Made by a program: the position numbers and the translations under genes. A DNA stretch of 42,845 nucleotides, from the NCBI GenBank assembly GCA_013152325.1, contig JAADGN010000019.1:1-42845 (forward strand). The letters are read 5' to 3'. Below, one piece after another: positions 8,858-23,928 of this stretch. The notes beneath the pieces are model-generated. The model was not told the DNA's origin. It searched no databases and saw nothing but the letters and a program-made list of their open reading frames with translations. How positions within the stretch are numbered: the first letter of the stretch is position 1; each line of letters starts with the position of its first letter. The DNA comes from Chloroflexota bacterium (GTDB lineage: Bacteria > Chloroflexota > Anaerolineae > Anaerolineales > Villigracilaceae).

Positions 8858-8886
8858 TTGACGCATCACGGCCTTGCATGTATAAT
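8858..8886 (+). promoter_or_regulatory. Near-consensus sigma70 promoter: TTGACG - 17 nt - TATAAT
   Basis: -35 at 8858-8863, -10 at 8881-8886; about 50 nt upstream of the first gene of the signalling operon. Confidence 0.85.
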
Positions 8887-8936
8887 CTTTTCAATTCTTT
8901 TGCTCCCCTGATGGGGGGCATTTCTTGAGGCCTGCT

Positions 8937-9752
8937 ATGGCATTGCGCGGCAACCTGCGCGACTTTACGATTACCCAACTGCTTAACCTGATCAACCTGG
9001 CGCACAAGACGGGGACGCTCATAGTGGATGGTCCCAATGAGACGGCCCAGGTCGCTTTCCGCGAGGGGAAGCTGGCTTATGCCGCGATAGGGCAGGAAGA
9101 TAACAGCCTGGCGACCATTTTGCACAAAGGCAGCAAGTTGACTGCCAACCAGTACCTCGCGATCAAGCAGCGTTCTGACCATGTGTCGGACAAGGAACTT
9201 GGGTTGTTGTTGATCAACGCTGGCTATGTCTCGCAAGAAGATATCCTTGCCAGTTTGCAGCAGTATTTTATAGACATCACCCGGCGGCTTTTCACCTGGG
9301 TGGAAGGCTTCTTCCGCTTTGAGAACGACATGTTGCCGCCGGAAGACCGCATCAATATCCGACTTGACCTGGAAAATCTGATCATCGAAGGCTCGCGCCA
9401 ACTGCGTGAGTGGGAACAGTTGCAGGATGAGATTCCCAGCCTGGAGATGGCGCTCAAATTTACGGACCGACCGGGCGCGAATCTGCGCAATATCAATTTG
9501 AGCGTGGAGGAGTGGCGGGTCGTTTCTTATATCACGCCCAAGAATACCATCAGTCAGATCGCCAAAGCGACGAAAATGAACGAGTTGGAGATCCGCCGAA
9601 TTGTGTACGGCTTGCTGCAGGCGGGGTTGGTGGAGATCGTTCGGCCAGAAGGCGCTCCGCTTCCGATGACCTCGAATATGTTCCCAACACAGGACAAAGA
9701 AGAACAGAAATCCTTGGTCAATCGCTTGATCAAACGCATTCGTTCAATGTAG
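8937..9752 (+). CDS. DUF4388 (PATAN-type) domain protein with C-terminal winged-helix-like segment
   Basis: MALRGNLRDFTITQLLNLINLAHKTGTLIVDG...VAFREGKLAYA; ATG at 8937 preferred over TTG at 8925. Confidence 0.87.
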   Translation: MALRGNLRDFTITQLLNLINLAHKTGTLIVDGPNETAQVAFREGKLAYAAIGQEDNSLATILHKGSKLTANQYLAIKQRSDHVSDKELGLLLINAGYVSQEDILASLQQYFIDITRRLFTWVEGFFRFENDMLPPEDRINIRLDLENLIIEGSRQLREWEQLQDEIPSLEMALKFTDRPGANLRNINLSVEEWRVVSYITPKNTISQIAKATKMNELEIRRIVYGLLQAGLVEIVRPEGAPLPMTSNMFPTQDKEEQKSLVNRLIKRIRSM

Positions 9753-9787
9753 CGCATTCAAATCTTTTTAATTCAAGGATAGACATT

Positions 9788-10327
9788 ATGCAAACGGTCA
9801 AAATGGTGGTGACAGGCCCCTTCAGCGCCGGAAAAACAGAGTTCATTCAATCGGTGAGCGAAATTGACGTTGTCTCGACCGAACGAAAGATTTCTTCCGA
9901 TGGCGAAAAGATGGTCAAGGAAGCGACCACAGTTGCGATGGACTTTGGCCGTATCACTGTGGACGAAGACTTGGTGCTGTACCTTTTTGGCACGCCGGGC
10001 CAGAAGCGTTTCGACTTTATGTGGGAAATTCTCTCCGAAGGTATGTTGGGTTTCATTGTTATGGTGGACAGCGCTCGTCCGGAGACCTTCCGCGAGGCGC
10101 GTGGTATTCTGCAAACTTTCCGCGCTTACGCGCCTACGCCCTACGTCGTGGCTGCCAACAAGCAGGATGCAGAAGATGCCTGGGAAGTCGATGATATGCG
10201 TCACGCGCTGCGGCTGGATTCAAAGATCAAGCTGCTGCCCTGCGTCGCTACCAACCGCAAATCTGTCAAGACAGTCCTGCTGGAATTGCTGTACAGCATC
10301 TTGGCTGAGATGGAGTCCGGAGGGTAG
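9788..10327 (+). CDS. Small Ras/Arf-like GTPase of the MglA/CvnD type
   Basis: G1 GPFSAGKT, TTVAMDFGRI, G3-like FGTPGQKRFDFMWE, G4 NKQD; ATG at 9788 within ORF 9512-10327. Confidence 0.9.
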   Translation: MQTVKMVVTGPFSAGKTEFIQSVSEIDVVSTERKISSDGEKMVKEATTVAMDFGRITVDEDLVLYLFGTPGQKRFDFMWEILSEGMLGFIVMVDSARPETFREARGILQTFRAYAPTPYVVAANKQDAEDAWEVDDMRHALRLDSKIKLLPCVATNRKSVKTVLLELLYSILAEMESGG

Positions 10328-10348
10328 GGCTCCGGTTTTTGGATCGCC

Positions 10349-11149
10349 GTGTCCTCAATTACCACTGATCAAGGCATAGTTCATTACGAAGTTTATGGAC
10401 GTGGGCGTCCAGTCATCTTGTTGCATGGGTGGCTGGGTTCGTGGGGGTTATGGCAGGAAACCATGGCCTATTTGGGCCGTTATTATCGCACTTATGCATT
10501 GGATTTCTGGGGGTTTGGCGAATCGGGCAAGAAGCGCGAGACTTACGCCGTACAGGATTTTGTCAGTCTGGTTGACCAATTCATGGAAAGGTTGGGCATC
10601 GTCCGCGCGCCGCTGGTCGGGCACAGCATGGGCGGCACGGTCAGCCTTTCGGTTGCCATCCAGTATCCGGAGCGGGTCAGCAAAGTCGTGGTCATCGGCT
10701 CTCCGATCGTCGGTTCGTCGCTGGCCTGGCCGCTGAAATTGTCTGGCTACCGGGCGGTCGCCTTTATGCTTTTCAATGTCATGTGGGGCTTTCGCCTGGG
10801 GATGCGCATCGCTTCGCCGTTCATCAGCCGGGATCCGCGTTTCCCCGAGATGATGGATCGCGACCTTTCCCGCACCACCCTGGAATCCTTCCTGTTGAGC
10901 ATTGCCTCCCTGCGCCGCACGGACCTGAGTCCGATGTTGCCGCAGATCAAAGTCCCGGCGCTGGGCATGTTTGGCGCCCTGGACAACATCGTCAATCCCG
11001 GCCAATGGCAGCCGATGCAGGCCGGTATCCCTCGCGTGCAGATCGAACGATTCCCCGATGCCGGCCATTTCATCATGCTGGACGAGCCGGACGAGTTCAT
11101 GCGGAAGTTGAAAACATTCCTGGACGAAGAGCAGCCGCCGAATGAGTGA
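10349..11149 (+). CDS. Alpha/beta-fold hydrolase (GHSMGG nucleophile elbow)
   Basis: LLHGWLGSWGLW, DFWGFGESGK, LVGHSMGGTVSL, DAGHFIMLDEP. Confidence 0.92.
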   Translation: MSSITTDQGIVHYEVYGRGRPVILLHGWLGSWGLWQETMAYLGRYYRTYALDFWGFGESGKKRETYAVQDFVSLVDQFMERLGIVRAPLVGHSMGGTVSLSVAIQYPERVSKVVVIGSPIVGSSLAWPLKLSGYRAVAFMLFNVMWGFRLGMRIASPFISRDPRFPEMMDRDLSRTTLESFLLSIASLRRTDLSPMLPQIKVPALGMFGALDNIVNPGQWQPMQAGIPRVQIERFPDAGHFIMLDEPDEFMRKLKTFLDEEQPPNE

Positions 11150-11771
11150 TTCCATGCCAGCGTATTATTATCCTAACCGCATGGGGAGGATCATTCTGCT
11201 GGCAATGGAGGAGATCATCGGGCAGAACGGCGTCAATGCCGTCTTGAATCTGGCTTCGCTCTCGTCGATGATCGATCGTTACCCTCCCCGTAACCGGGAT
11301 TTACAAATCCCTTTTGAGACCATCAGTAGTATCCAGTCAACGCTGGAGCAGATTTACGGGCCGCATGGTGGACGCGGACTGGCCCTGCGCACCGGACGCG
11401 CCTGTTTCAAATACGGGATGCGTGAATTTGGTCCCCAACTGGGGTTGACGGACATGGCTTTCCGCCTGCTGCCGTTATCGACGAAATTGCGTCTCGGCAG
11501 CCGGGTGTTTGCGTCTCTTTTCAACCGGCACACCGATCAACGCGTCCGGCTGGAGGAACAGCCCGGGCAGATCCACTGGCACATCGAGCGCTGCCCCTTG
11601 TGCTGGGGCCGCCACACCGACGAACCGGTCTGTCACCTGGCCGTAGGACTGTTGCAGGAGTCCCTTTACTGGGTGAGTGGTGGTAAGATATTTAACGTTG
11701 AAGAAACTCACTGTATTGCACGCGGTGATCCGGCCTGCACGATTGTCATTGACCGCATCCCCATAACCTGA
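11142..11771 (+). CDS. V4R (4-vinyl reductase) domain protein
   Basis: C-terminal CPLCWG..PVCHLAVGLLQESLYW...EETHCIARGDPACTIVI matches the V4R Cys pattern; overlaps the upstream gene by 8 nt. Confidence 0.82.
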   Translation: MSDSMPAYYYPNRMGRIILLAMEEIIGQNGVNAVLNLASLSSMIDRYPPRNRDLQIPFETISSIQSTLEQIYGPHGGRGLALRTGRACFKYGMREFGPQLGLTDMAFRLLPLSTKLRLGSRVFASLFNRHTDQRVRLEEQPGQIHWHIERCPLCWGRHTDEPVCHLAVGLLQESLYWVSGGKIFNVEETHCIARGDPACTIVIDRIPIT

Positions 11772-11775
11772 ACTC

Positions 11776-13053
11776 ATGCTGAAGATCATCCTCCAAGCCC
11801 CTCGACCACTTCCGCCGTTCAATGAGCCGGCGCGGGATTTGCGCATTCAGAATCAGCCGTTGTGGCTGCTCCAGCGCAACCTGCTGGCCCCGTATACGAC
11901 GCGTGAACTGGAATTGAAGCCCGGCCAGCGCCTCCCGCAGACGCGCGAGGAGATGCTGGTCTACCGCGACAATCTGTTTTTCGATCAGGGCTACATTCGC
12001 GCTTTCCTGGCAACTGCCAGAAAACGCGGCCGCGCCAGCCGGGCGGCTTTTTCATCTGAAGACCCGGCCTTCCGTGAACACGCGCTGCCGCTTTCCACAT
12101 CGTACACACCGGCCGGGAATCTGTATTTGGCCGATCTGTGGTATTACCCGCGCGGCCCGGTCGCGGATGCACGTCCGCTGGTGGTCGACATGCAAGCGCG
12201 CGAGGTGGGGTACTACCATGTTCCCACCTACATGGCTGACGAGAGCGGCGACTTGGTCTTCCAGGTGCCATTGCGCGCGCTGTTGGCAATCGATTCGTGG
12301 GTGCATATTTTCATCGCGGACGTGGTCTTTGGCATGTTCGCACGCGGGGCGCGTTTTGAAAAACGCCTGAACGAAGACCTGTTGTACAAATTGAAGATAT
12401 TGAGCACGGCGCTTTATGAGGGCCGGCAAATATTGGAATGTTCAGAGTTGGTCAAGGTGGGCAAGAACTGTATTATCGACCCGCGTGCCGTCATTCACGG
12501 CCCGACGACGATTGGCGATAACGTCACCGTCGGTGCGGGCGCAGTCATCGAGAATTGCATCATCGGGGATAATGTCAATATTTCTCAGGATGTGCAGCTC
12601 ATGCTCTCGGTCGTCGGGGACGGCACGTTTTTGCCCTTCCGGGCGGCGTTGTTCATGACCACGATTATGGACAACAGCATGGTTGCTCAAAATACTTGTT
12701 TGCAGATGTGCGTGGTGGGGCGCAACACCTTTATCGGCGCGGGGTCCACGTTTACGGACTATAACCTGATTCCGGCTCCCATTCGCGCCCTGGATGGTAA
12801 CGACGAGCTGAAGATCTCAAACCGTCCTGTCATGGGCAGTTGTGTGGGACATAACTGCCGCCTCGGCTCCGGATTGGTCATTTATCCGGCGCGGACGATT
12901 GAATCGGACGTGGTGCTGGCTGCCTCCAAAGAGCGGCGCGTGATCATGAAAGACATCCGTTACGAAGACAGCGACCATCATCACTTGCGTTTGGGGTATT
13001 TGCATCGCTCCCCGTATCATCAATCAGGCGAATCAGAGGTGGAATCTTGGTAA
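11776..13053 (+). CDS. Left-handed beta-helix (hexapeptide repeat) protein, GlmU/acyltransferase-like
   Basis: VGKNCIIDPRAVIHGPTTIGDNVTVGAGAVIENCIIGDNVNI hexapeptide repeats; unassigned N-terminal about 200 aa. Confidence 0.8.
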   Translation: MLKIILQAPRPLPPFNEPARDLRIQNQPLWLLQRNLLAPYTTRELELKPGQRLPQTREEMLVYRDNLFFDQGYIRAFLATARKRGRASRAAFSSEDPAFREHALPLSTSYTPAGNLYLADLWYYPRGPVADARPLVVDMQAREVGYYHVPTYMADESGDLVFQVPLRALLAIDSWVHIFIADVVFGMFARGARFEKRLNEDLLYKLKILSTALYEGRQILECSELVKVGKNCIIDPRAVIHGPTTIGDNVTVGAGAVIENCIIGDNVNISQDVQLMLSVVGDGTFLPFRAALFMTTIMDNSMVAQNTCLQMCVVGRNTFIGAGSTFTDYNLIPAPIRALDGNDELKISNRPVMGSCVGHNCRLGSGLVIYPARTIESDVVLAASKERRVIMKDIRYEDSDHHHLRLGYLHRSPYHQSGESEVESW

Positions 13054-13056
13054 GCA

Positions 13057-14148
13057 ATGGATAGTTTTGCCTTTATCATTCATCCGATTGACCCTAAACG
13101 GGATGTCAGCCGAAAGTACCCTTTTCTGGGGCGTGTGCTCAGTGAACGTCAAATTGATTTTTTCTCGACATTTTTCCCTCCGGTCTACATTTCCGAGATC
13201 GAGGGAATTACGTCCGAGGCCACCGGCAAGCAGATCAAAGGCTGGTTCATAGCGTGCCCGTTCACGCCGCGACGCATGCTGGCGTTGCCAGAAAAGACAG
13301 TTTATCGTAAGATTATTCAGACCGGACGTTTATCCGAGCGTCTGGGTGCGGATATTCTTGGCCTGGGCGCATTCACGTCCGTGGTCGGAGACGCCGGGAT
13401 TACTATCGCGAAGGCGCTGGATGTACCGGTCACGACGGGTGATTCGTACACCGTGGCGATTGCTGTGCAAGCCATTCGCAAGGCGGCGGAGTTGATGGGG
13501 ATTTCACTGCGCAACGCGACCGCGGCGGTGGTCGGCGCGGGCGGAGCGATTGGCCGGGTCTGCGCTGAATTGCTGGCTGATGATGTCGCCCGTTTATATC
13601 TGATCGGCCGCCATATGGGGCCGCTGGAGGAAGTCCAGACTGCGTTACAGCCCTCGGCGCGGGCGGAACTGGTCGCCAGCACGGACATGTCTGTCCTTTC
13701 GGATGCCCGGTTGATCTTGACGGTGACCAGCGCGGTACATCAGGAAGTCATCCGCCCGGAGCATCTTCAACCGGGCAGCGTGGTTTGCGACGTGGCGCGG
13801 CCTCGCGATGTTTCTGTAATGGTAGCCGCGGCAAGAGATGATATATTAGTAATAGACGGCGGTATGGTGGATGTTCCAGGCCCCGTTGACTTTCACTTTA
13901 ATTTTGGTTTTCCACCTGGCAAAGCTTATGCCTGCATGGCTGAGACGATGGCGCTGGTATTGGAAGGTCGTTTGGAAGATTACACATTGGGCAAGCATAT
14001 CACGCGCAGCCGTGTGGACGAAATTACGATGATCGCGGAGAAACATGGTTTCCGTCTGAGCGGTTTTCGCTCTTTTGAAAAAGAAGTAACGCCGGAACAA
14101 ATCGAAGCTGTACGCCAGAGCGCCCGCAGGGCGCAGCGGCGCAACTAG
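13057..14148 (+). CDS. NAD(P)-dependent reductase resembling long-chain acyl-ACP reductase (AAR) / shikimate-dehydrogenase-like Rossmann protein
   Basis: LGAFTSVVGDAGITIAKALDVPVTTGDSYTVA, Rossmann VVGAGGAIGRVCAELL, conserved-looking YACMAETM. Confidence 0.7.
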   Translation: MDSFAFIIHPIDPKRDVSRKYPFLGRVLSERQIDFFSTFFPPVYISEIEGITSEATGKQIKGWFIACPFTPRRMLALPEKTVYRKIIQTGRLSERLGADILGLGAFTSVVGDAGITIAKALDVPVTTGDSYTVAIAVQAIRKAAELMGISLRNATAAVVGAGGAIGRVCAELLADDVARLYLIGRHMGPLEEVQTALQPSARAELVASTDMSVLSDARLILTVTSAVHQEVIRPEHLQPGSVVCDVARPRDVSVMVAAARDDILVIDGGMVDVPGPVDFHFNFGFPPGKAYACMAETMALVLEGRLEDYTLGKHITRSRVDEITMIAEKHGFRLSGFRSFEKEVTPEQIEAVRQSARRAQRRN

Positions 14149-14167
14149 ACGTTGTTGGGAGGCTCGT

Positions 14168-15073
14168 ATGGGAAAAGCCCGCCTTTTGGTCGTCGAAGAC
14201 GACGCTGATATTGCCAATATGCTGAAGATCTACTTTGGCGGCTTGGATTTTGATGTGGACATCGCGCCGCGCGGATCGGTTGCATTGGAGAAAACGCGGC
14301 AAGTATTGCCTCATTTGATCATTCTGGACATCATGCTGCCGGATATTGACGGCTACGAGGTCTGCCGTACACTGCGTACCAGCACGCGTACCAGCCATAT
14401 CCCGGTCATCTTCCTGACGCAGAAGGATGAGCGCAGCGATAAGCTCCAGGGGCTGGAATTGGGCGCGGATGACTACATCACCAAGCCATTCGACATCGAA
14501 GAGCTTAAGTTGCGCGTCCAGGGAGCCATTCGTCGCGCTGAGCGCGAGAGCCTGACCGATCCTCGCTCTGGACTTCCGGCCGGGCATCTGATCGAGGAGC
14601 AGCTACGCCGCATCATCCGTGAGGAGAGTTGGGCGTTGATGGATGTGCGTCTCAACCACTTCGATTCATTCAAGGATGTCTACGGTTTTGTGGCTGGCGA
14701 TGACGTATTGCGCTTCACGGCCATGTTGTTGGGCGAAGTCGTGGACGAACTGGGCACTGCGGATGATTTCATCGGCCACGCGGGTGGCGACAATTTCATA
14801 ATCATCACCACTGAAGATGCTGCCCGAACGATCAAGCAGCGCCTGAAAGACCGTTTTGTGGAAGAGGTGCAAGCCCACTACAACTTTATGGATCGTCAGC
14901 AAGGCTTTGTGCAAACAGCCAATTCAGACGGGGAGATGGAGAAGGCGCCGTTGATGACACTGGCCGTCGGGATCATTACACCCAAACAGCATACTTTTGC
15001 AGATATCCGCGAGATTACAGAGATGGCGGCCGAGGTGCGCCGGCAGGATACCACAAGCGTTTCCAGGGGCTGA
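14168..15073 (+). CDS. Response regulator with degenerate GGDEF output domain
   Basis: Receiver VVEDDADIANML...IILDIMLPDIDGYEV...GADDYITKPF; GGDEF-like domain with GGDNF. Confidence 0.88.
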   Translation: MGKARLLVVEDDADIANMLKIYFGGLDFDVDIAPRGSVALEKTRQVLPHLIILDIMLPDIDGYEVCRTLRTSTRTSHIPVIFLTQKDERSDKLQGLELGADDYITKPFDIEELKLRVQGAIRRAERESLTDPRSGLPAGHLIEEQLRRIIREESWALMDVRLNHFDSFKDVYGFVAGDDVLRFTAMLLGEVVDELGTADDFIGHAGGDNFIIITTEDAARTIKQRLKDRFVEEVQAHYNFMDRQQGFVQTANSDGEMEKAPLMTLAVGIITPKQHTFADIREITEMAAEVRRQDTTSVSRG

Positions 15074-15084
15074 GGTTCCATTCT

Positions 15085-18000
15085 GTGATTTTGCAAGGGC
15101 TGGGCCTGGGCATCGAACTCCTATTGCTCGGACTGGTATTGATCGTACTGGTCTGGGTTTTATCGCGTTTGGTTACCCGACTTCAGCCCACTTTCCAATC
15201 TGCAATCCAACCATCATCTGTTGATATTCCTGAACATACGGATGCCGTACTGGTGATCCAACCCGGCGGACGGGTTGAGTATGTCAACGCGATTGCACGA
15301 CAGTGGTTTAATCTGAACGAGAATGAACAGCCAGACCTGGAACGGCTGGCGCGGCGCGCCCGTCCCAGCGACGACTTTCTGCGCCTGTGCACCGCGGAGG
15401 GCCAGACGCGCTTTTCAATCGGCGGGCGGTTGGTGGAAGGCGTCTCCTATCAGGTGCCTGGGCCGTATCCGGTCATGCTGCTCTCGCTGCGTCAACCGGA
15501 AATTGCGTCGGGGCTGGCGGAGGCCGGCGATGTGTCCGGTTCGGTTCTTCGCATCATCACGGACTTCGGTCAGGCGATTGCTGCCAACTTGAATTTGGAC
15601 GCCACCCTGTGGGCTGTCCTGGAGAATATCGAGCGACTGATCCCCGCGGATGTTTTGGAAATCAAGATATGGGATCAGGCGAGTCAAAGGCTCGTTCCCT
15701 ATCGCTTCAGCAGCCTGAATGGCACGACTCGTCAATTGGAGAGAAGCACCGAGACGCGCTTCGGGGCGTATTCCGAATACCTGGTTGCCAAAAAACAGCC
15801 GCTATTTGTCCCCGATACGCAAGCTTTTACCGAGGTGCGTTTTACAGAAGGAACTGGGCAGTATCCGATCCGCTCCTATATCGGCATTCCGCTTCAGGCC
15901 GGGGGCGAGTTGGTCGGCATATTGGAGGCGGGTCAGATCGCTGTCGATGCCTATGCGCGCGAAGACCTGGACATTATCCAACTGATCGCCGGGCAGGCCG
16001 CGACAGCCATTCGCAACGCGTTGCTGTACGAGAATGAACAGCGGCGCGCAGCCGAACTTTCGGGGTTGGCAAATCTGGCTCAGTCGGTTGGCTCCTTGCA
16101 GGACGCGCAGGACTTCTTTGGCCGTCTGGTAAAGAGTATCGTTTCCCTGTTCGACGTAAAAATCCTGGGCTTTTTGCTCTACGACGAGAATCGGCGAATG
16201 CTGGAGGGGCAAGTGCCCTTTGAAGGAATTCCAGCGCACGTGGTCGAGATCTATCACGCCGTCGTGCCCGCTGGAAGCCCGGCTGCGAAGATCATCTCGG
16301 CGCGCGAAACTCTGCTGACGGAGGAAGCCACGGAAGATGAGCGGTGGCGCGATCTGAACTTGCATGACGTGGCTCAAGCGGCCAGCTTGCATGAATCGGC
16401 GCTGGTGCCCTTGGTGTCTGGCGGACGTTTTCTGGGTTACCTGCAACTTTCCAATCATCGTCAGGGCAAGACAGCTTTCTCTCAAGACGAATTGCGTTTG
16501 ATGGAGATCGTCGCCAACCAGGCTGCGACGATCATCGACAATGCAGCCCTTATGCAGCAGACCCGCCGACGCGCCCAACGCTCGGAAGCCTTGCGCAGGA
16601 TTGCCAGTTTGGCTGCCTCCTCGGCGACGATGGATGAGATCCTCCGTTTTTCTTTGCGGGAATTGGCGCAACTTCTTCAAGCCGATTCGGCTGTGATCTT
16701 TCTCCTGGATGAACGCCAGGGTACCTTGAATGCCCATCTGGATTCACTTTGGGGGGTCTCAGAGGAGAGCCTGAAATTATTCTCGCAGTTGTATGTGGAC
16801 GACCCACAATATCGCTTCACGGTCACGGGCAGTCAGCGTGCCTTTATTTCAGGGCATTTGAGCCGGGACAGGCGTGTTTTGCAGCTCTATCGTCCGATGG
16901 TGGAGACCTCGCAGATGGAATCGGCAGTTGTCGTTCCTCTGGTCGTTCGAGAGCGCAGCATTGGCGAGTTGATGATCACCAGCCGGAAAACGGACTTTTT
17001 CAACGATTACGATCTCCAGGTCGTTGCGACGGTCGCCGGTCAACTGGCCGTTGCGATCGAAGAATCCAGCCGATCTGCGCAAACGGACGAAAGCCTGCGG
17101 ACGCGCGTCGACCAGTTGGTTGCCCTTTCACGCGTCAGCCGTGAACTGAACACGACCCTGGATTTGGATCAACTGCTCCAGGTCGTATACGATGAAGGTC
17201 TGCGTACCACGCGGGCTGATTGCGGCACGATTACGCTCTTTGACCTGAACGGAGCGCAGGACGACCCGCGCGTGAGCCTGTCCCTGGGTTGTTTGCATGA
17301 CGATCAACTTACGGATCTCGAGCGTGCCGCGGTCCAGAACGGCAGGCCGATCCTCGTCGCCGATTCCAAGAACGGGGAGTATCCTGCCAGTCATGACGGC
17401 GTTCGCTCTGCACTGGTGGCGCCCATTGCCCATCAGGGAAAGACCGCTGGTCTGATCCATCTGCATTCCGATGCCCCGAATCATTTCGATGACGCATCGT
17501 TGGACTTTATCCAAACGCTGGCCGTCCAGGCGGCGATTGCTTTGGGAAATGTTCATCGTTATCACGAACAGATGCGTCATGGTGAATTGCTCCGCCGCCG
17601 TGCGGAAACCCTTTCCAAGCTGCTTGAGACCACGTACACCCTTGACCCGGATCAGCCGCTGGAAAGCGCTCTGGAGGCGATAGCCCGCGGCATTCACGAG
17701 TCGACGCCCTTCCAGGTGGTCCTGGTCAGCGTCTATGAGCCGGATACAGGCATGTTGCGTCGCGTGACCGGCGTCGGCATCCCGCCTGAGACGTTGAACG
17801 AGTTGAAAGCCCGCAAGCAGCCCCTGACGAGCATCCAGCAATTGCTCAAGCCCGAATTCCAAATCGGACGCGCGTACTACATCCCGGCGGATGAGACCCC
17901 GGTCGTGCCGACGGATGTGCACATGGTCACCCTGCCGTCTGCGGGGATGGATGAAAAGCCGAATGCCTGGAATCCGAACGACTTCCTGCTTTTCCTGCTC

Positions 18001-21000
18001 GAAGACCAAACCGGGAACCCGCTGGGGTTGATCAGTTTGGACCAGCCGAGCGACGGCATGCGTCCGGACCATGCCACGATTGAGTCGATCGAGATTTTTG
18101 CTGCCCAAGCATCGCTGGTCATCAGCAGTCAATACCGCCTGAATGATTTCAAGGGACGCATTGAAGCGCTCTCTTCCGGGATGGAACGCCAGCAGCGCTT
18201 GTTGAGCGTCAGCCAGAATGATCTGCCGATCTTGCTGCACAAGGACCTGGAGCAGACGATAACCGTCCAAAACCTGGAGCGGCGCACGCAGCGTATCCGC
18301 GCCGGGTTAAAGATCACCGAGACGGTCAGCCGCCAATTGGACGCTTCATCTGCCTTGCTGGCGCTGGGCCGTGAGATCCTTACCCACCTCGGCATGTCGG
18401 TCGCGCTGGTTGCCGAAGATACGCCCGAAGGCCCGCACCTTTTGCATGTTTTGGGCAACGTGCCGCGCGCCACCAATCCCGAAGCATTGTTCGGCCAGCG
18501 CAACCCTCTGCGAACTTGCCTGCAAACGGGCGAGACTTTGGTGGTCATGAACCTGGACGAGAACGATGAGTGGCGCGAGACGCCGTTGCTCAGCGCGCTG
18601 CATGCCAAGGGCTTCTTGAGTTTGCCCGTCAAGGTGGACGGTAAGACCGTGGCTGCGGTGCTGGCGATCAGTCTGGAGCCGATGCCGGCCCTGGCAGAGG
18701 AAGATCAACAGGTCTACTTCCAGATCGCCCGGCAGGCTTCCGTTATTCTCCAGAATATCGACCTGCTCAACGAGACCCGCCGCCGCTTGCAGGAAGTTAA
18801 CCTGTTACTGGACTTCAGCCGCCGTTTGAGCGGACTTGACCCGGTCAGCATTGTCAAGGCGTTGTTGGAGAGCGCTTTGCGTGTGATCTCGGCTGCGCAT
18901 GCCGGGGTGGTGCTGCTTTGGGACGACCGGCGGGAGCAGTTGGTCCCGAGGGCTGTTCTGAATTACGCGGATAACGACAGCATGATGGAAATTACCTATC
19001 ATGCAGGGGAGGCGCTCCCCGGCACTGTCTTCGCGGAGCGGCGGCCTCGCAACGTGGACGAAGTTAACTTCGCCCGGGATTACACCCTCTCGGCGACACA
19101 TCTTTTGTATTATCGTCAGGCGACCGGCGGTCGCTTGCCCGTTTCCAGTTTGCTGATCCCGATCCAGATGGGCGATCATTGCCTGGGCGTGCTGGTTCTG
19201 GACAATTTCAACAAAGCGTCCGCGTTCCAGGCTGAAGATGAAGCCCTGCTGCTCTCGCTGTCACAGCAGGTTGCGCTTTCCCTGGAAAACGTACGCCTGG
19301 TGAAAGCGACCGAAGAACGCGCCGGCCAATTGCAGGCGCTGACGGGCGTCGCGGCGACGATCACTTCCAGTTTGCAAAGCGGTGAACTGGTCGCTTTGTT
19401 GCTCGATCAGTTGGGAGCGGTCATCCCCTTTGATACGGCCACTCTCTGGCTGCACGATCAGGATCACCTGTCGGTTGCCGCGGCGCGCGGCTTCCCGGAC
19501 AGTGAAGAGCGCATTGGCCTGACTGTGGCCGTCGAAGACAGCGCTTTGTTCAACGAAATGATCCGCACCGGTCAGGGCATCGCGATCTCGGACGTGCGTG
19601 AAGACCCGCGTTTCCCGGCCTTGGTTGAAGCCGAGCGGTTGTCCTGGCTGGGCATTCCGCTGATTTCAAAAGGCGAGGTGACCGGCGCTATTGCCCTCGA
19701 AAAAGAGGATGCGAATTTTTACACGCCGACTCATATCCAGGTTGCGAAGACGTTCGCCGGGCAGGCGGCTGTGGCGCTGGAGAACGCCCGTCTGTACGAG
19801 GACAGCCTGGGACGAGCGGCGGAACTCGACCAGCGTTCACAACGTTTGGCGTTGCTCAACCGCTTCTCGGCGGAGTTGAGCGGCTCGCTGAATGCCGACC
19901 AGGTGCTCTGGCTGACAGCAGAAGAGTTGCTGCGGGCGTTGAATGCCAGCCAGGTTTCCGTGATCGTCTTCGAACGCGGACAGGCTCTTTTGAAGGATAT
20001 TTTGCCGGAGACCAAACGCGCTCGACCGGAGGATTTGCCCCAGCCTTTGCCCGAAACGCCCCTCTTCGAGCGTTTGCGCGAGTCGCTGGGGGTGTTCACC
20101 ACGGACGATGTGCAGGCCGAGGCCGAACTTGATGAGTTGGCAGATCTCCTGGGCGAGACCAGGGCTTTGATGGCGTTGCCCCTTTCCAGCGGCGAAGCGA
20201 TGCACGCCTTGCTGTTCATCCAGATGGAGGGTGATTTCCGCTTCAGCCCAAACGAGATCGAGTTGGCGCGCACGATTGGCAACCAGGCTTCTATCGCGCT
20301 GGAAAATGCCCGCCTGTATCAGTCCACGCTTTCGACGGCTGAACGACTGGCGATCATCAACCAGGTCAGCGCTGAGATCAGCGCCAGCCTGGACCCGGAA
20401 AAGATTTACGTCGCGGTTCACGAAGCGGCCAAACGCCTGATGCCGGTCGAATCCTTTGTGATCGCCTTGTTGAACGAGAAAGAACAGGTGATTGACGGCG
20501 TTTATCTGGTGGACCATGATGAACGTTCGCAAACCATGAGCCTGCCGCTCGACCAGGGGCTGAGCGGACAGGTGATCGCTACCGGCGAACCATTATTGAT
20601 CCACGGCTCTGACCTGGTGGATGAGATGGGCGGCGTCACAGGCGGGGATTTGGGTACGCCGCGCTCCATCCTGGCTGTGCCGATGCAGATAGGCGAGCAG
20701 GTCGTCGGGATGCTCTCGGCGCAGAGTTACCAGGTCAACGTTTATACGGAGGATGACCAGCAGATTCTGAGTACGCTGGCGAACCAGGCCATCATCGCCA
20801 TTCAAAATGGACGCCTGTTTGCCGAAACCCAGCGCCTGGCGGAAGAACTCGAACAGCGCGTCATCGAACGTACCGCACAATTGGAACGGGAGCAGAAGAA
20901 TACAGAGACGCTGCTGAACATTCTTACCGAAGTCTCCGCCAGCCTCGACCTCGACCGGGCGCTCAATCGCACCCTGGCTTTGCTTAATGATGCCACCGGT

Positions 21001-22527
21001 GCGGAACAGGGCACGATCATGCTCCTGCATCCGGACGACAATCAGCTCCATTATCGCGCCGGGTATGGCTATTTGACCAACGCGAAGGCGGAACAAAAGG
21101 AATTTGCCTTGAGAGTCGGTGAAGGTCTGGCGGGCTGGGTGGTTCAGAATCAGGATGCCATTTTGGTTGACGACTTGAATCAAGACCCGCGCTGGGTGAA
21201 GATCAAGTCCAAAGTGCAGAAACACCGCAGCGCGATCTCGGCTCCGCTGATTGTCGGCGAGGATGTGATCGGCGTGTTGATGGTCTTCCATCGCAAGAAG
21301 AAGTTTTTCGATCCGGAGCAGCTCAATCTCGTCAAGGCCATTGCCAGTCAGGTTGCCGTCGCGATCAACAATGCCAATCTGTATGAGTTGATCCGCGATC
21401 AGGCTGAACGCCTGGGCAATATGCTTCGCAAGGAGAAGGAAGACGCCAGCCGGTCGCAGGCCATCCTGGAGGCCGTCGCTGACGGTGTGCTGGTGACGGA
21501 CGCGGAGAACAAGATCAGCTTCCTCAATAATTCGGCGCAGCGCATCCTTAATCTGGATGCCTCGCATGTGGTCGAGCAGACGCTGGATGATTTCGGCGGT
21601 CTGTTTGGCAAGGCGGCCAGCGCCTGGAAACAAACCGTCCGCGAGTGGTCGGAAGATCCGTCTTCGTATGTGCCGGGCGACACATACGCCGAGCAACTGG
21701 AACTGGAAGATGGTCGTGTGGTGCTGGTCCACCTGGCGCCTGTCATGCTTCCGAACGACTTCCTGGGTACGGTCTCTATTTTCCGTGACATCACGCACGA
21801 AGTCGAGGTTGACCGCTTGAAGTCCGAGTTTGTGGCGACGGTCAGCCACGAATTGCGCACGCCGATGACCTCCATCCGCGGCTACGTGGACATCCTGTTG
21901 ATGGGCGCGGCCGGAGCGATGAACGAGAATCAGACCCATTTCCTGGAAATCATCCGCAACAATACCGAACGGCTGAATATCCTGGTCAACGATCTGCTCG
22001 ATATCTCGCGCATCGAGTCCGGGCGTGTTACACTCGCCCCACAGCCGCTTGACCTGCGGGATGTGGCCGAGGATGTGATCTCCGAAGTGCTGCGCCGCTC
22101 TCAGGAGGAAAACAAACCCATGGGGCTTTCGCTCGAAGCAGCCTCCAGTTTGCCCCGCGTCTATGGCGACTCTGAGCGTGTGCGTCAGATCATTGCCAAC
22201 CTGGTGGAAAATGCCTATCGCTACACCCCTGAGAACGGCAAGATAATCGTCCGCCTGCAGGTCGTGAATGGCGGCGACGAGGTGCGGGTGGATGTGAGCG
22301 ATAATGGCGTTGGCATTGCCCCGGAAGACCAGGAACAAGTCTTCGAGCGTTTCTACCGTGGCGAGAATCCGTTGGTGCTGGCTACGCCTGGAACAGGCTT
22401 GGGCCTGCCCATTGTCAAGCAGTTGGTCGAGATGCATAAAGGCCGCATCTGGATGGAAAGTACTGGAAAACCCGGGAAAGGGAGCACGTTCTCCTTCACG
22501 CTTCCTGTACATCAGACTGGTAAGTGA
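15085..22527 (+). CDS. Giant hybrid-sensor-type histidine kinase: 1 TM, PAS-like, about 11 GAF-like units, PAS, HisKA, HATPase_c
   Basis: GTG start; FVATVSHELRTPMTSIRGY H-box; QIIANLVENAYRYTP N-box; DNGVGI and GTGLGLPIVKQLV; repeated GAF-terminal motif (A/N)QAAxAIxNAxLY. Confidence 0.95.
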   Translation: MILQGLGLGIELLLLGLVLIVLVWVLSRLVTRLQPTFQSAIQPSSVDIPEHTDAVLVIQPGGRVEYVNAIARQWFNLNENEQPDLERLARRARPSDDFLRLCTAEGQTRFSIGGRLVEGVSYQVPGPYPVMLLSLRQPEIASGLAEAGDVSGSVLRIITDFGQAIAANLNLDATLWAVLENIERLIPADVLEIKIWDQASQRLVPYRFSSLNGTTRQLERSTETRFGAYSEYLVAKKQPLFVPDTQAFTEVRFTEGTGQYPIRSYIGIPLQAGGELVGILEAGQIAVDAYAREDLDIIQLIAGQAATAIRNALLYENEQRRAAELSGLANLAQSVGSLQDAQDFFGRLVKSIVSLFDVKILGFLLYDENRRMLEGQVPFEGIPAHVVEIYHAVVPAGSPAAKIISARETLLTEEATEDERWRDLNLHDVAQAASLHESALVPLVSGGRFLGYLQLSNHRQGKTAFSQDELRLMEIVANQAATIIDNAALMQQTRRRAQRSEALRRIASLAASSATMDEILRFSLRELAQLLQADSAVIFLLDERQGTLNAHLDSLWGVSEESLKLFSQLYVDDPQYRFTVTGSQRAFISGHLSRDRRVLQLYRPMVETSQMESAVVVPLVVRERSIGELMITSRKTDFFNDYDLQVVATVAGQLAVAIEESSRSAQTDESLRTRVDQLVALSRVSRELNTTLDLDQLLQVVYDEGLRTTRADCGTITLFDLNGAQDDPRVSLSLGCLHDDQLTDLERAAVQNGRPILVADSKNGEYPASHDGVRSALVAPIAHQGKTAGLIHLHSDAPNHFDDASLDFIQTLAVQAAIALGNVHRYHEQMRHGELLRRRAETLSKLLETTYTLDPDQPLESALEAIARGIHESTPFQVVLVSVYEPDTGMLRRVTGVGIPPETLNELKARKQPLTSIQQLLKPEFQIGRAYYIPADETPVVPTDVHMVTLPSAGMDEKPNAWNPNDFLLFLLEDQTGNPLGLISLDQPSDGMRPDHATIESIEIFAAQASLVISSQYRLNDFKGRIEALSSGMERQQRLLSVSQNDLPILLHKDLEQTITVQNLERRTQRIRAGLKITETVSRQLDASSALLALGREILTHLGMSVALVAEDTPEGPHLLHVLGNVPRATNPEALFGQRNPLRTCLQTGETLVVMNLDENDEWRETPLLSALHAKGFLSLPVKVDGKTVAAVLAISLEPMPALAEEDQQVYFQIARQASVILQNIDLLNETRRRLQEVNLLLDFSRRLSGLDPVSIVKALLESALRVISAAHAGVVLLWDDRREQLVPRAVLNYADNDSMMEITYHAGEALPGTVFAERRPRNVDEVNFARDYTLSATHLLYYRQATGGRLPVSSLLIPIQMGDHCLGVLVLDNFNKASAFQAEDEALLLSLSQQVALSLENVRLVKATEERAGQLQALTGVAATITSSLQSGELVALLLDQLGAVIPFDTATLWLHDQDHLSVAAARGFPDSEERIGLTVAVEDSALFNEMIRTGQGIAISDVREDPRFPALVEAERLSWLGIPLISKGEVTGAIALEKEDANFYTPTHIQVAKTFAGQAAVALENARLYEDSLGRAAELDQRSQRLALLNRFSAELSGSLNADQVLWLTAEELLRALNASQVSVIVFERGQALLKDILPETKRARPEDLPQPLPETPLFERLRESLGVFTTDDVQAEAELDELADLLGETRALMALPLSSGEAMHALLFIQMEGDFRFSPNEIELARTIGNQASIALENARLYQSTLSTAERLAIINQVSAEISASLDPEKIYVAVHEAAKRLMPVESFVIALLNEKEQVIDGVYLVDHDERSQTMSLPLDQGLSGQVIATGEPLLIHGSDLVDEMGGVTGGDLGTPRSILAVPMQIGEQVVGMLSAQSYQVNVYTEDDQQILSTLANQAIIAIQNGRLFAETQRLAEELEQRVIERTAQLEREQKNTETLLNILTEVSASLDLDRALNRTLALLNDATGAEQGTIMLLHPDDNQLHYRAGYGYLTNAKAEQKEFALRVGEGLAGWVVQNQDAILVDDLNQDPRWVKIKSKVQKHRSAISAPLIVGEDVIGVLMVFHRKKKFFDPEQLNLVKAIASQVAVAINNANLYELIRDQAERLGNMLRKEKEDASRSQAILEAVADGVLVTDAENKISFLNNSAQRILNLDASHVVEQTLDDFGGLFGKAASAWKQTVREWSEDPSSYVPGDTYAEQLELEDGRVVLVHLAPVMLPNDFLGTVSIFRDITHEVEVDRLKSEFVATVSHELRTPMTSIRGYVDILLMGAAGAMNENQTHFLEIIRNNTERLNILVNDLLDISRIESGRVTLAPQPLDLRDVAEDVISEVLRRSQEENKPMGLSLEAASSLPRVYGDSERVRQIIANLVENAYRYTPENGKIIVRLQVVNGGDEVRVDVSDNGVGIAPEDQEQVFERFYRGENPLVLATPGTGLGLPIVKQLVEMHKGRIWMESTGKPGKGSTFSFTLPVHQTGK

Positions 22528-22534
22528 GGCGTCA

Positions 22535-22909
22535 ATGACGAAAATATTGATAGCAGAAGACGAACGCGATATTCGGGACTTGATCGCTTTTACGCTGCGT
22601 TTTGCGGGATATGAAGTTGTGACCGCTGCGAACGGAGAAGAAGCGGTCGAATCGGCAGCACAAGAAACCCCGGACTTGATCTTGCTGGACGTACGCATGC
22701 CGCGCATGACCGGATACGATGCTTGCAAGCTCATCAAATCTGATCCGGCGTTGGTGGATATACCGGTGGTTTTTCTTTCTGCCAAAGGCCAGGAATCGGA
22801 GATCCAGACTGGCCTGGAGGCCGGCGCGGAGGAATATTTGCTCAAGCCCTTCGCCCCGGACGAGTTGACGGCGCGCGTGCGCGCCATTCTGTCAAAATTC
22901 GGGAAGTGA
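22535..22909 (+). CDS. Single-domain response regulator
   Basis: MTKILIAEDERDIRDLI...LILLDVRMPRMTGYDA...EYLLKPF; ATG at 22535 within ORF 22304-22909. Confidence 0.94.
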   Translation: MTKILIAEDERDIRDLIAFTLRFAGYEVVTAANGEEAVESAAQETPDLILLDVRMPRMTGYDACKLIKSDPALVDIPVVFLSAKGQESEIQTGLEAGAEEYLLKPFAPDELTARVRAILSKFGK

Positions 22910-22942
22910 GCATCCGCGTTTTTGTGAGAGCGAAGATATAAG

Positions 22943-23731
22943 ATGAGCGTGGTTCTGGTTGACGAGGCGATTGTGCATTACGAGGTGTTGGGACGGGGAC
23001 GCCCCATCATCTTTCTGCACGGCTGGGTCGGCTCATGGCGATACTGGATATCGTCCATGCAAGTTGCCTCGACCTCGTTCCGCGCCTACGCGCTCGATTT
23101 GTGGGGCTTTGGGGATTCGGCGCGTGAAGCTGGCCGCTACACACTGGATCAGCAGGTCGATCTGTTGGATCACTTCCTCGAGCAGTTGGGTATCGGCAAG
23201 ATCGCATTGGTCGGGCATGGACTGGGCGCGTTGGTCGCGCTGGCTTTCACGGCGCGCTCATCGCAGAGCGTGGATCGCCTGATGGTTGTCAACTGTCCGA
23301 TAGACGTTAAGGCCGTCCACAACCGCTTGCGTACCGCGCCGCTCACTGATCTGGTGGACTGGCTTTCCGGCCGTACGCCGGATGCGCAGACTGCGCTGAC
23401 GGACGCCATCAAGGCAGACCCCGCAGCGATCTCAGCCTCGATGAATGGCATTCGCCTGGAAGAAGTTTTCGAGCAGGTAAAACAGCAGCGCACGCCTTGT
23501 TTGCTGGTACACGGACAAAGCGACCCCGCGGTGGCGATGCCGAGTATGGAGCAGGTCATGGCGTTGCCGCATTTCATGCACCACATCGTGCTGGAAGGCT
23601 CTGCTCATTTCCCGATGATCGATGAGACCGCCAAATTCAACCGTTTGCTGACCGACTTTCTGGCGCTGGATTCAGGGCTCAGCCCGCGTGAGTTGCAGTT
23701 GAAAGAGGAGTGGAAACGGCGCGTGCGATAA
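22943..23731 (+). CDS. Alpha/beta-hydrolase-fold protein lacking the nucleophile Ser (GHGLG), paralogue of 10349-11149
   Basis: FLHGWVGSWRYW, DLWGFGDSA, LVGHGLGALVAL (Ser replaced by Gly93), retains GQSDPAV and GSAHFPMIDE. Confidence 0.9.
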   Translation: MSVVLVDEAIVHYEVLGRGRPIIFLHGWVGSWRYWISSMQVASTSFRAYALDLWGFGDSAREAGRYTLDQQVDLLDHFLEQLGIGKIALVGHGLGALVALAFTARSSQSVDRLMVVNCPIDVKAVHNRLRTAPLTDLVDWLSGRTPDAQTALTDAIKADPAAISASMNGIRLEEVFEQVKQQRTPCLLVHGQSDPAVAMPSMEQVMALPHFMHHIVLEGSAHFPMIDETAKFNRLLTDFLALDSGLSPRELQLKEEWKRRVR

Positions 23732-23878: not shown

Positions 23879-23893
23879 TAGCACCTGACAACG

Positions 23894-23928
23894 ACCATCC
23901 TCCAATGGCGAGGATGGTTTTATTTTAT
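23894..23928 (+). terminator. Intrinsic terminator (riboswitch expression platform)
   Basis: ACCATCCTC caatggc GAGGATGGT followed by TTTATTTTAT. Confidence 0.9.

Follow-up and report, generated by a model that had tools for sequence, protein, structure and literature searches.

What is known of Ras-like GTPases in bacteria comes mostly from gliding and conservon systems, and their inputs are poorly understood. The locus described here raised the question of what such a GTPase does in a block of ten genes shared with a very large histidine kinase, and whether the block is one signalling operon of conservon type, as an earlier note on this DNA had proposed. The window analysed was a whole contig of 42,845 nt, part of a 2.95-Mb genome that was 92% complete. 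All ten genes lay on the + strand, from 8937 to 23731, with the following features:

8858–8886, +, sigma-70-type promoter, TTGACG-N17-TATAAT
8901–8920, +, short leader hairpin immediately 5' of the ribosome-binding site, present in many homologues, not all
8937–9752, +, DUF4388 (PATAN) protein, 271 aa (PF14332, 1.8e-25)
9782–10327, +, small Ras-like (MglA/CvnD-type) GTPase, 181 aa, with GPFSAGKT, FGTPGQKRF and ANKQD intact
10349–11149, +, alpha/beta hydrolase 1, nucleophile elbow GHSMGG
11142–11771, +, V4R-domain protein (V4R match, five conserved Cys), predicted hydrophobic-ligand sensor
11776–13053, +, nucleotidyltransferase-like N-terminal domain without the GGxGTR loop, followed by a left-handed beta-helix (LbH protein)
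13057–14148, +, PigE/AAR-type thioester (acyl-ACP/CoA) reductase
14168–15073, +, receiver with a degenerate GGDEF domain, GGDNF (REC-GGDEF)
15085–22527, +, membrane-anchored histidine kinase, 2480 aa, with ten GAF, PAS, HisKA and HATPase domains
22535–22909, +, single-domain receiver (REC2), phosphoacceptor Asp kept
22943–23731, +, alpha/beta hydrolase-fold protein 2, GHGLGA, nucleophile Ser replaced, probable pseudo-hydrolase
23893–23919, +, terminator-like stem of 10 pairs with a T-rich tail, downstream of the final gene

From the DUF4388 gene to hydrolase 2 the successive gaps were 29 and 21 nt, an overlap, then 4, 3, 19, 11, 7 and 33 nt, the last being the largest, and the close same-strand spacing described earlier was thus confirmed. 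The promoter, also named in that description, was conserved in both position and sequence upstream of the DUF4388 gene: at least 11 of the 12 consensus bases matched in 83 of the 89 homologous loci, a score reached by 0.06% of shuffles. The likeliest start of the DUF4388 gene was the ATG at 8937, which coincided with the aligned homologue start and was usually preceded by a GAGG motif. The leader hairpin, flanked by the promoter and a UUGAGG-type ribosome-binding site, varied in sequence among homologues. It was rejected as a conserved RNA element, several leaders being without it and the mean energy being only ~1 SD below that of shuffles. At the GTPase/hydrolase 1 junction (10311–10335), a terminator-like stem with a T run was seen, a possible internal attenuator. 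Judged by its layout, the ten-gene block would be transcribed as a single mRNA.

Searches covered 301 Chloroflexota genomes, and gene order was mapped on 20-kb regions. The GTPase was present in 60/60 genomes of the source family, the reductase in 54 and the LbH protein in 53 of the 301. The order DUF4388-GTPase-hydrolase-V4R-LbH-reductase-REC-GGDEF-kinase-REC-hydrolase was found in most sampled family genomes, covering about 20–25 genera. A second sample comprised 80 independently fetched loci, all Anaerolineae or Chloroflexi by title, with Bellilinea caldifistulae and a Villigracilaceae MAG among them. Counting only loci with enough flank, the kinase (70/70), REC-GGDEF (71/72) and the reductase (68/74) were found downstream of the LbH gene, and the GTPase (63/71), DUF4388 (55/62) and V4R (60/78) upstream of it. 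Intergenic gaps were short in the homologous loci and loosest at the V4R/LbH junction. Because the order is kept across genera and the promoter exceeds shuffles, neither was due to chance. Within the family the orthologues were syntenic and not scattered, which bore out the proposal of one conserved signalling operon. In the same genus as the source, genome G338 (L065) had no more of the block at the corresponding place than DUF4388-GTPase-hydrolase.

The GTPase matched ATP_bind_1 and Ras domains as well as MglA structures, and its G1, G3 and G4 motifs (GPFSAGKT, FGTPGQ[KR]RF and NKQD) were conserved in about 108 homologues. The CvnD-like pattern noted earlier held as MglA/CvnD-like motifs, and the protein is assigned to the MglA family. 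Immediately upstream, as claimed, was the DUF4388 gene, whose product scored 89.8 bits on PF14332 (cut-off 25) and had a winged-helix-like C-terminal part (~184–234, weak match). PATAN genes near MglA are already known (PMC4316618), and the pairing of a GTPase with PATAN/DUF4388 is shared with MglA-MglB systems of MglA groups 1 and 5 (Wuichet 2014, PMC4316618).

A conservon consists of CvnA, CvnB, CvnC and CvnD (PMC8510531, PMC4316618). The block resembled Streptomyces conservons in having a histidine kinase and a Ras-like MglA-family GTPase in one operon and a small HTH-like protein near the GTPase, with a related Roadblock protein encoded in its genome. Unlike them, it had DUF4388 in place of DUF742 and its Roadblock in trans, and it added V4R, REC-GGDEF, REC, LbH, reductase and hydrolase genes, which conservons lack. 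The kinase differed from CvnA in its ten GAF domains and HisKA; its ATPase domain ended at residue 2476 of 2480, the tail being SFTLPVHQTGK, with no LPxR. No match to DUF742 (PF05331) was obtained in the 92%-complete source genome, in a search whose controls gave sub-cut-off matches only and whose sensitivity was little tested. With DUF742 undetected and a kinase that stopped after its ATPase domain without LPxR, a conservon proper was unsupported: of the "conservon-like" label the MglA-family GTPase and the kinase stood, and a cis-encoded Roadblock, DUF742 and the LPxR tail did not. A true conservon acquired from Actinobacteria by transfer, with cvnB and cvnC subsequently lost, would account for the CvnD-like motifs and for a source-genome Roadblock related to CvnB5. 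We regard it as very improbable, given a DUF742 search without a match, a kinase architecture and C-terminus that differ from the conservon definition (PMC4316618, PMC8510531), and a spread over several Chloroflexota classes that suggests old vertical descent. The operon was also considered as an anti-phage defence system, and PADLOC gave no meaningful match.

Roadblock proteins are the usual regulators of Ras-like GTPases. None was encoded within the window, for which the earlier remark that neither a Roadblock nor a DUF742 gene is visible holds good; two Roadblock genes were found elsewhere in the source genome. One heads an operon, Roadblock-V4R-REC-GGDEF-family-2 glycosyltransferase (L184:2490-5138, contig C9), that is paralogous to part of the window, its V4R and REC-GGDEF proteins being 50% and 45% identical to the window counterparts; it was preceded by a different, TTGACA-type promoter. 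In the family the Roadblock-V4R pair was intact in 15/15 fetched loci of this companion operon, REC-GGDEF being missing or broken in two of them and the glycosyltransferase undetected in two. The other Roadblock gene lay immediately upstream of pyrG, encoding CTP synthase (L185:3678-5813, contig C107), as it did in L202-L206, L232 and L234. Roadblock genes of these kinds were present in 41/41 family genomes, and the source-genome Roadblock matched solved Roadblock structures, including CvnB5 and MglB.

Among the 301 genomes, 56 had both the GTPase and a Roadblock of this type, none the GTPase alone, one the Roadblock alone and 244 neither, a statistic that shared ancestry inflates. In deep Chloroflexota lineages (L228, L229, L230 and L233) the two genes were linked in cis, within four genes of each other, as in MglA-MglB systems. 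DUF4388, GTPase and Roadblock were adjacent in L230, one short ORF separated GTPase and Roadblock in L229 and L233, and L228:6839-12699 held a single cluster, DUF4388-GTPase-Roadblock-V4R-LbH-hydrolase-Roadblock. (Next to the L228 cluster lie a gene for guanylate kinase and a pair encoding a LuxR-type regulator and a kinase.) Because of the near-perfect co-occurrence and the common cluster in deep lineages, we infer that in Anaerolineales the GTPase is partnered by Roadblocks encoded in trans. The Anaerolineales system would then differ from MglA-MglB in keeping its Roadblock in a second operon and in its fixed link to V4R and the giant kinase.

The H-box of the kinase and the phosphoacceptor Asp of both receivers were intact. 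Two receiver proteins had been announced, and both were found, one of them being a REC-GGDEF protein rather than a plain receiver. Its active site read GGDNF, not GG(D/E)EF, in nearly all homologues, and on this motif the domain looks dead as a diguanylate cyclase.

The V4R protein scored 38.6 bits on PF02830 (cut-off 31). Its predicted model (pLDDT 92) matched the folds of H-NOX, the phenol sensors MopR and PoxR, and Bet3/TRAPPC3. Cys 151, 154, 164, 191 and 199 were conserved among homologues, a cluster like that of Zn-binding V4R proteins; it fits a putative Zn site by analogy with those described for PoxR and Thor-TRAPPC3 (PMC10933270). Dependence of V4R on the reductase was rejected, no cis dependence being found: L068, L130, L136 and L161 had an ordinary V4R and no reductase. 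In one reductase-less clade (L094, L095, L166 and L175) V4R was strongly diverged and had lost its Cys ligands, and at ten loci the reductase was kept and V4R was undetectable.

The protein described as an AAR-like reductase had a Rossmann reductase domain and is better described as a thioester reductase of PigE/AAR type, not AAR proper, the PigE domain being nearer (NF053554, 4.6e-62; AAR model TIGR04058, 4.3e-35). On TIGR04058 it scored 121.6 bits, far below the curated cut-off of 449.7. It was homologous to the PigE/TamH thioester-reductase domain and to cyanobacterial AAR over nearly the full length, sharing the catalytic Cys and GxGxxG, and in the alignment with solved AAR Cys294 of SeAAR corresponded to Cys293 here. 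Cys293 and GxGxxG were invariant in 13/13 sequences and about 101 loci. Unlike PigE, this reductase had no aminotransferase partner and was surrounded by signalling genes.

The hexapeptide-repeat protein of the earlier note did contain a beta-helix, to which a nucleotidyltransferase-like N-terminal domain without its catalytic loop can now be added. That domain gave no sequence match in Pfam or PDB, and the GGxGTR loop was absent from residues 1–40 in 14/14 sequences. In the predicted model, which was moderately reliable (mean pLDDT 66, with most of the N-terminal part at ~90), the fold resembled GMPPA/GMPPB, ST0452 and RmlA (Foldseek 1e-4), and domain order as well as predicted fold were shared with GMPPA/GMPPB and GlmU-type proteins, which differ from it in possessing GGxGTR. 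The LbH protein is probably a degenerate sugar-nucleotidyltransferase-like protein, judged from this model, and the missing loop makes nucleotidyltransferase activity improbable. In hydrolase 1 the elbow and its Ser nucleophile were kept in 97/100 homologues. In hydrolase 2 the nucleophile Ser was replaced in most homologues, suggesting a probable conserved pseudo-hydrolase.

These enzymes could mean that the operon serves the biosynthesis of a metabolite derived from lipid, of aldehyde or wax type, under pathway-specific regulators of its own, the GTPase being secondary. Reductases of this family are reported to convert acyl thioesters to aldehydes (PMC8341465, PMC9594044), and the invariant catalytic residues and one active-looking hydrolase agree with such a role. 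We nevertheless consider a biosynthetic operon improbable: the block has no gene for a carrier protein, for a ligase or for an enzyme acting further on the aldehyde, neither the nucleotidyltransferase loop of the LbH protein nor the nucleophile of hydrolase 2 is present, and minimal versions of the block consist of signalling genes only. At L231, DUF4388-GTPase-V4R-REC-GGDEF-kinase-REC stood alone, without LbH, reductase or hydrolases, and L212 was likewise minimal. The L231 set indicates that the signalling genes are the core and that the LbH, reductase and hydrolase genes are accessory.

Outside the source family the block fell into DUF4388-GTPase, V4R-LbH-REC-GGDEF-kinase, and the reductase at another site. 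L091 had a nearly complete block, L094 and L095 lacked the reductase, and L089, L090 and L092 had DUF4388-GTPase-hydrolase-LbH-reductase without the kinase. L096 and L097 carried V4R-LbH-REC-GGDEF-kinase-hydrolase, and L100 was alike from its start but without V4R; the reductase, where present, was encoded elsewhere, fused to an extra N-terminal region in proteins of ~690 residues. In the fusions at L099:9033-11087 and L101:8794-10869 this conserved region of ~340 residues had no Pfam match. Other classes had a DUF1385 gene immediately 5' of DUF4388-GTPase, at L208:3146-5531 and L209:4182-6531. Genome G302 retained, at L079:15450-16235, only a 41-residue LbH fragment adjoining V4R, a trace of downstream-half loss.

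This breakup bears on a further possibility, that GTPase/DUF4388 and V4R-LbH-REC-GGDEF-kinase are two independent modules in one operon without cross-talk. The block was split at the V4R/LbH junction, where the gaps are loosest, in genome G055 (L071, L072) and about eight related loci, and the halves were unlinked in other classes. In the lineages with the largest genomes the GTPase-DUF4388 pair occupied a different locus from the V4R-LbH-REC-GGDEF-kinase block, so that coupling of the two would be conjectural there. G150 had the latter block and neither a GTPase nor a Roadblock closely resembling those described here, which counts against a one-system reading, as does the lack of cis dependence between V4R and the reductase. 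However, V4R and REC-GGDEF also adjoin a Roadblock in the companion operon, and in L231 the GTPase, V4R, REC-GGDEF and kinase genes are contiguous without LbH or reductase; through these two arrangements the halves meet repeatedly. We hold independent modules to be a serious but minority possibility.

We favour, with moderate confidence, a split GTPase/Roadblock module joined to a two-component relay, a V4R sensor and an accessory thioester-reductase branch, a reading supported by synteny, short gaps, the promoter, motif integrity, the companion operon, co-occurrence and the L231 core. In this scheme the ten GAF domains would let the membrane-anchored kinase integrate small-molecule cues, and the kinase would pass phosphate to REC2 and REC-GGDEF. 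The V4R proteins would have a Zn-ordered pocket that binds a hydrophobic ligand, and the Roadblocks, with DUF4388 as a scaffold, would control whether the GTPase carries GTP or GDP. Hydrolase, degenerate nucleotidyltransferase/LbH protein and reductase may constitute an accessory branch for the synthesis or turnover of an acyl-derived aldehyde or a related compound. A lipid/aldehyde step may thereby be coupled to the GTPase switch, as first suggested, and candidate outputs are envelope, polarity or gene expression.

A more specific and rather doubtful extension is that the V4R (TRAPPC3-fold) proteins, of which one adjoins the GTPase and the other the Roadblock, translate a hydrophobic ligand, perhaps an acyl-derived product of the reductase, into the GTP/GDP state of the Ras-like protein in a kinase-coupled manner. 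V4R could instead be a plain ligand sensor unconnected with the GTPase, which would argue against this coupling. The combination of small GTPase, Roadblock and V4R is shared with TRAPP and Asgard archaea, and an exchange-factor role for V4R would be conjectural.

A search of open-access papers turned up no account of the full operon or of its Roadblock-V4R companion, and nothing on the operon came from papers on V4R with Chloroflexi kinases, Chloroflexi acyl-ACP reductases or Anaerolineae MglA. For Anaerolinea thermolimosa the order DUF4388-GTPase-hydrolase-LbH is listed without comment in an appendix (PMC8756737). The block appears to be a genuine signalling system that is not yet characterised. 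It supplies defined and widely conserved candidate inputs to a Ras-like GTPase, namely a V4R ligand sensor, a giant GAF kinase and a thioester reductase, and a candidate Roadblock partner for the GTPase is now identified. In the Asgard archaeon MK-D1, GTPase genes generally lie outside operons with Roadblock or TRAPPC3 genes (PMC10933270), and this scatter makes GTPase partners hard to match. Since GTPase, Roadblock and V4R are operon-linked here, V4R-fold regulation of prokaryotic GTPases becomes directly testable; if true, the V4R-GTPase-Roadblock system would give bacteria an operon-linked equivalent of TRAPP's GTPase/Roadblock-longin/Bet3 combination.
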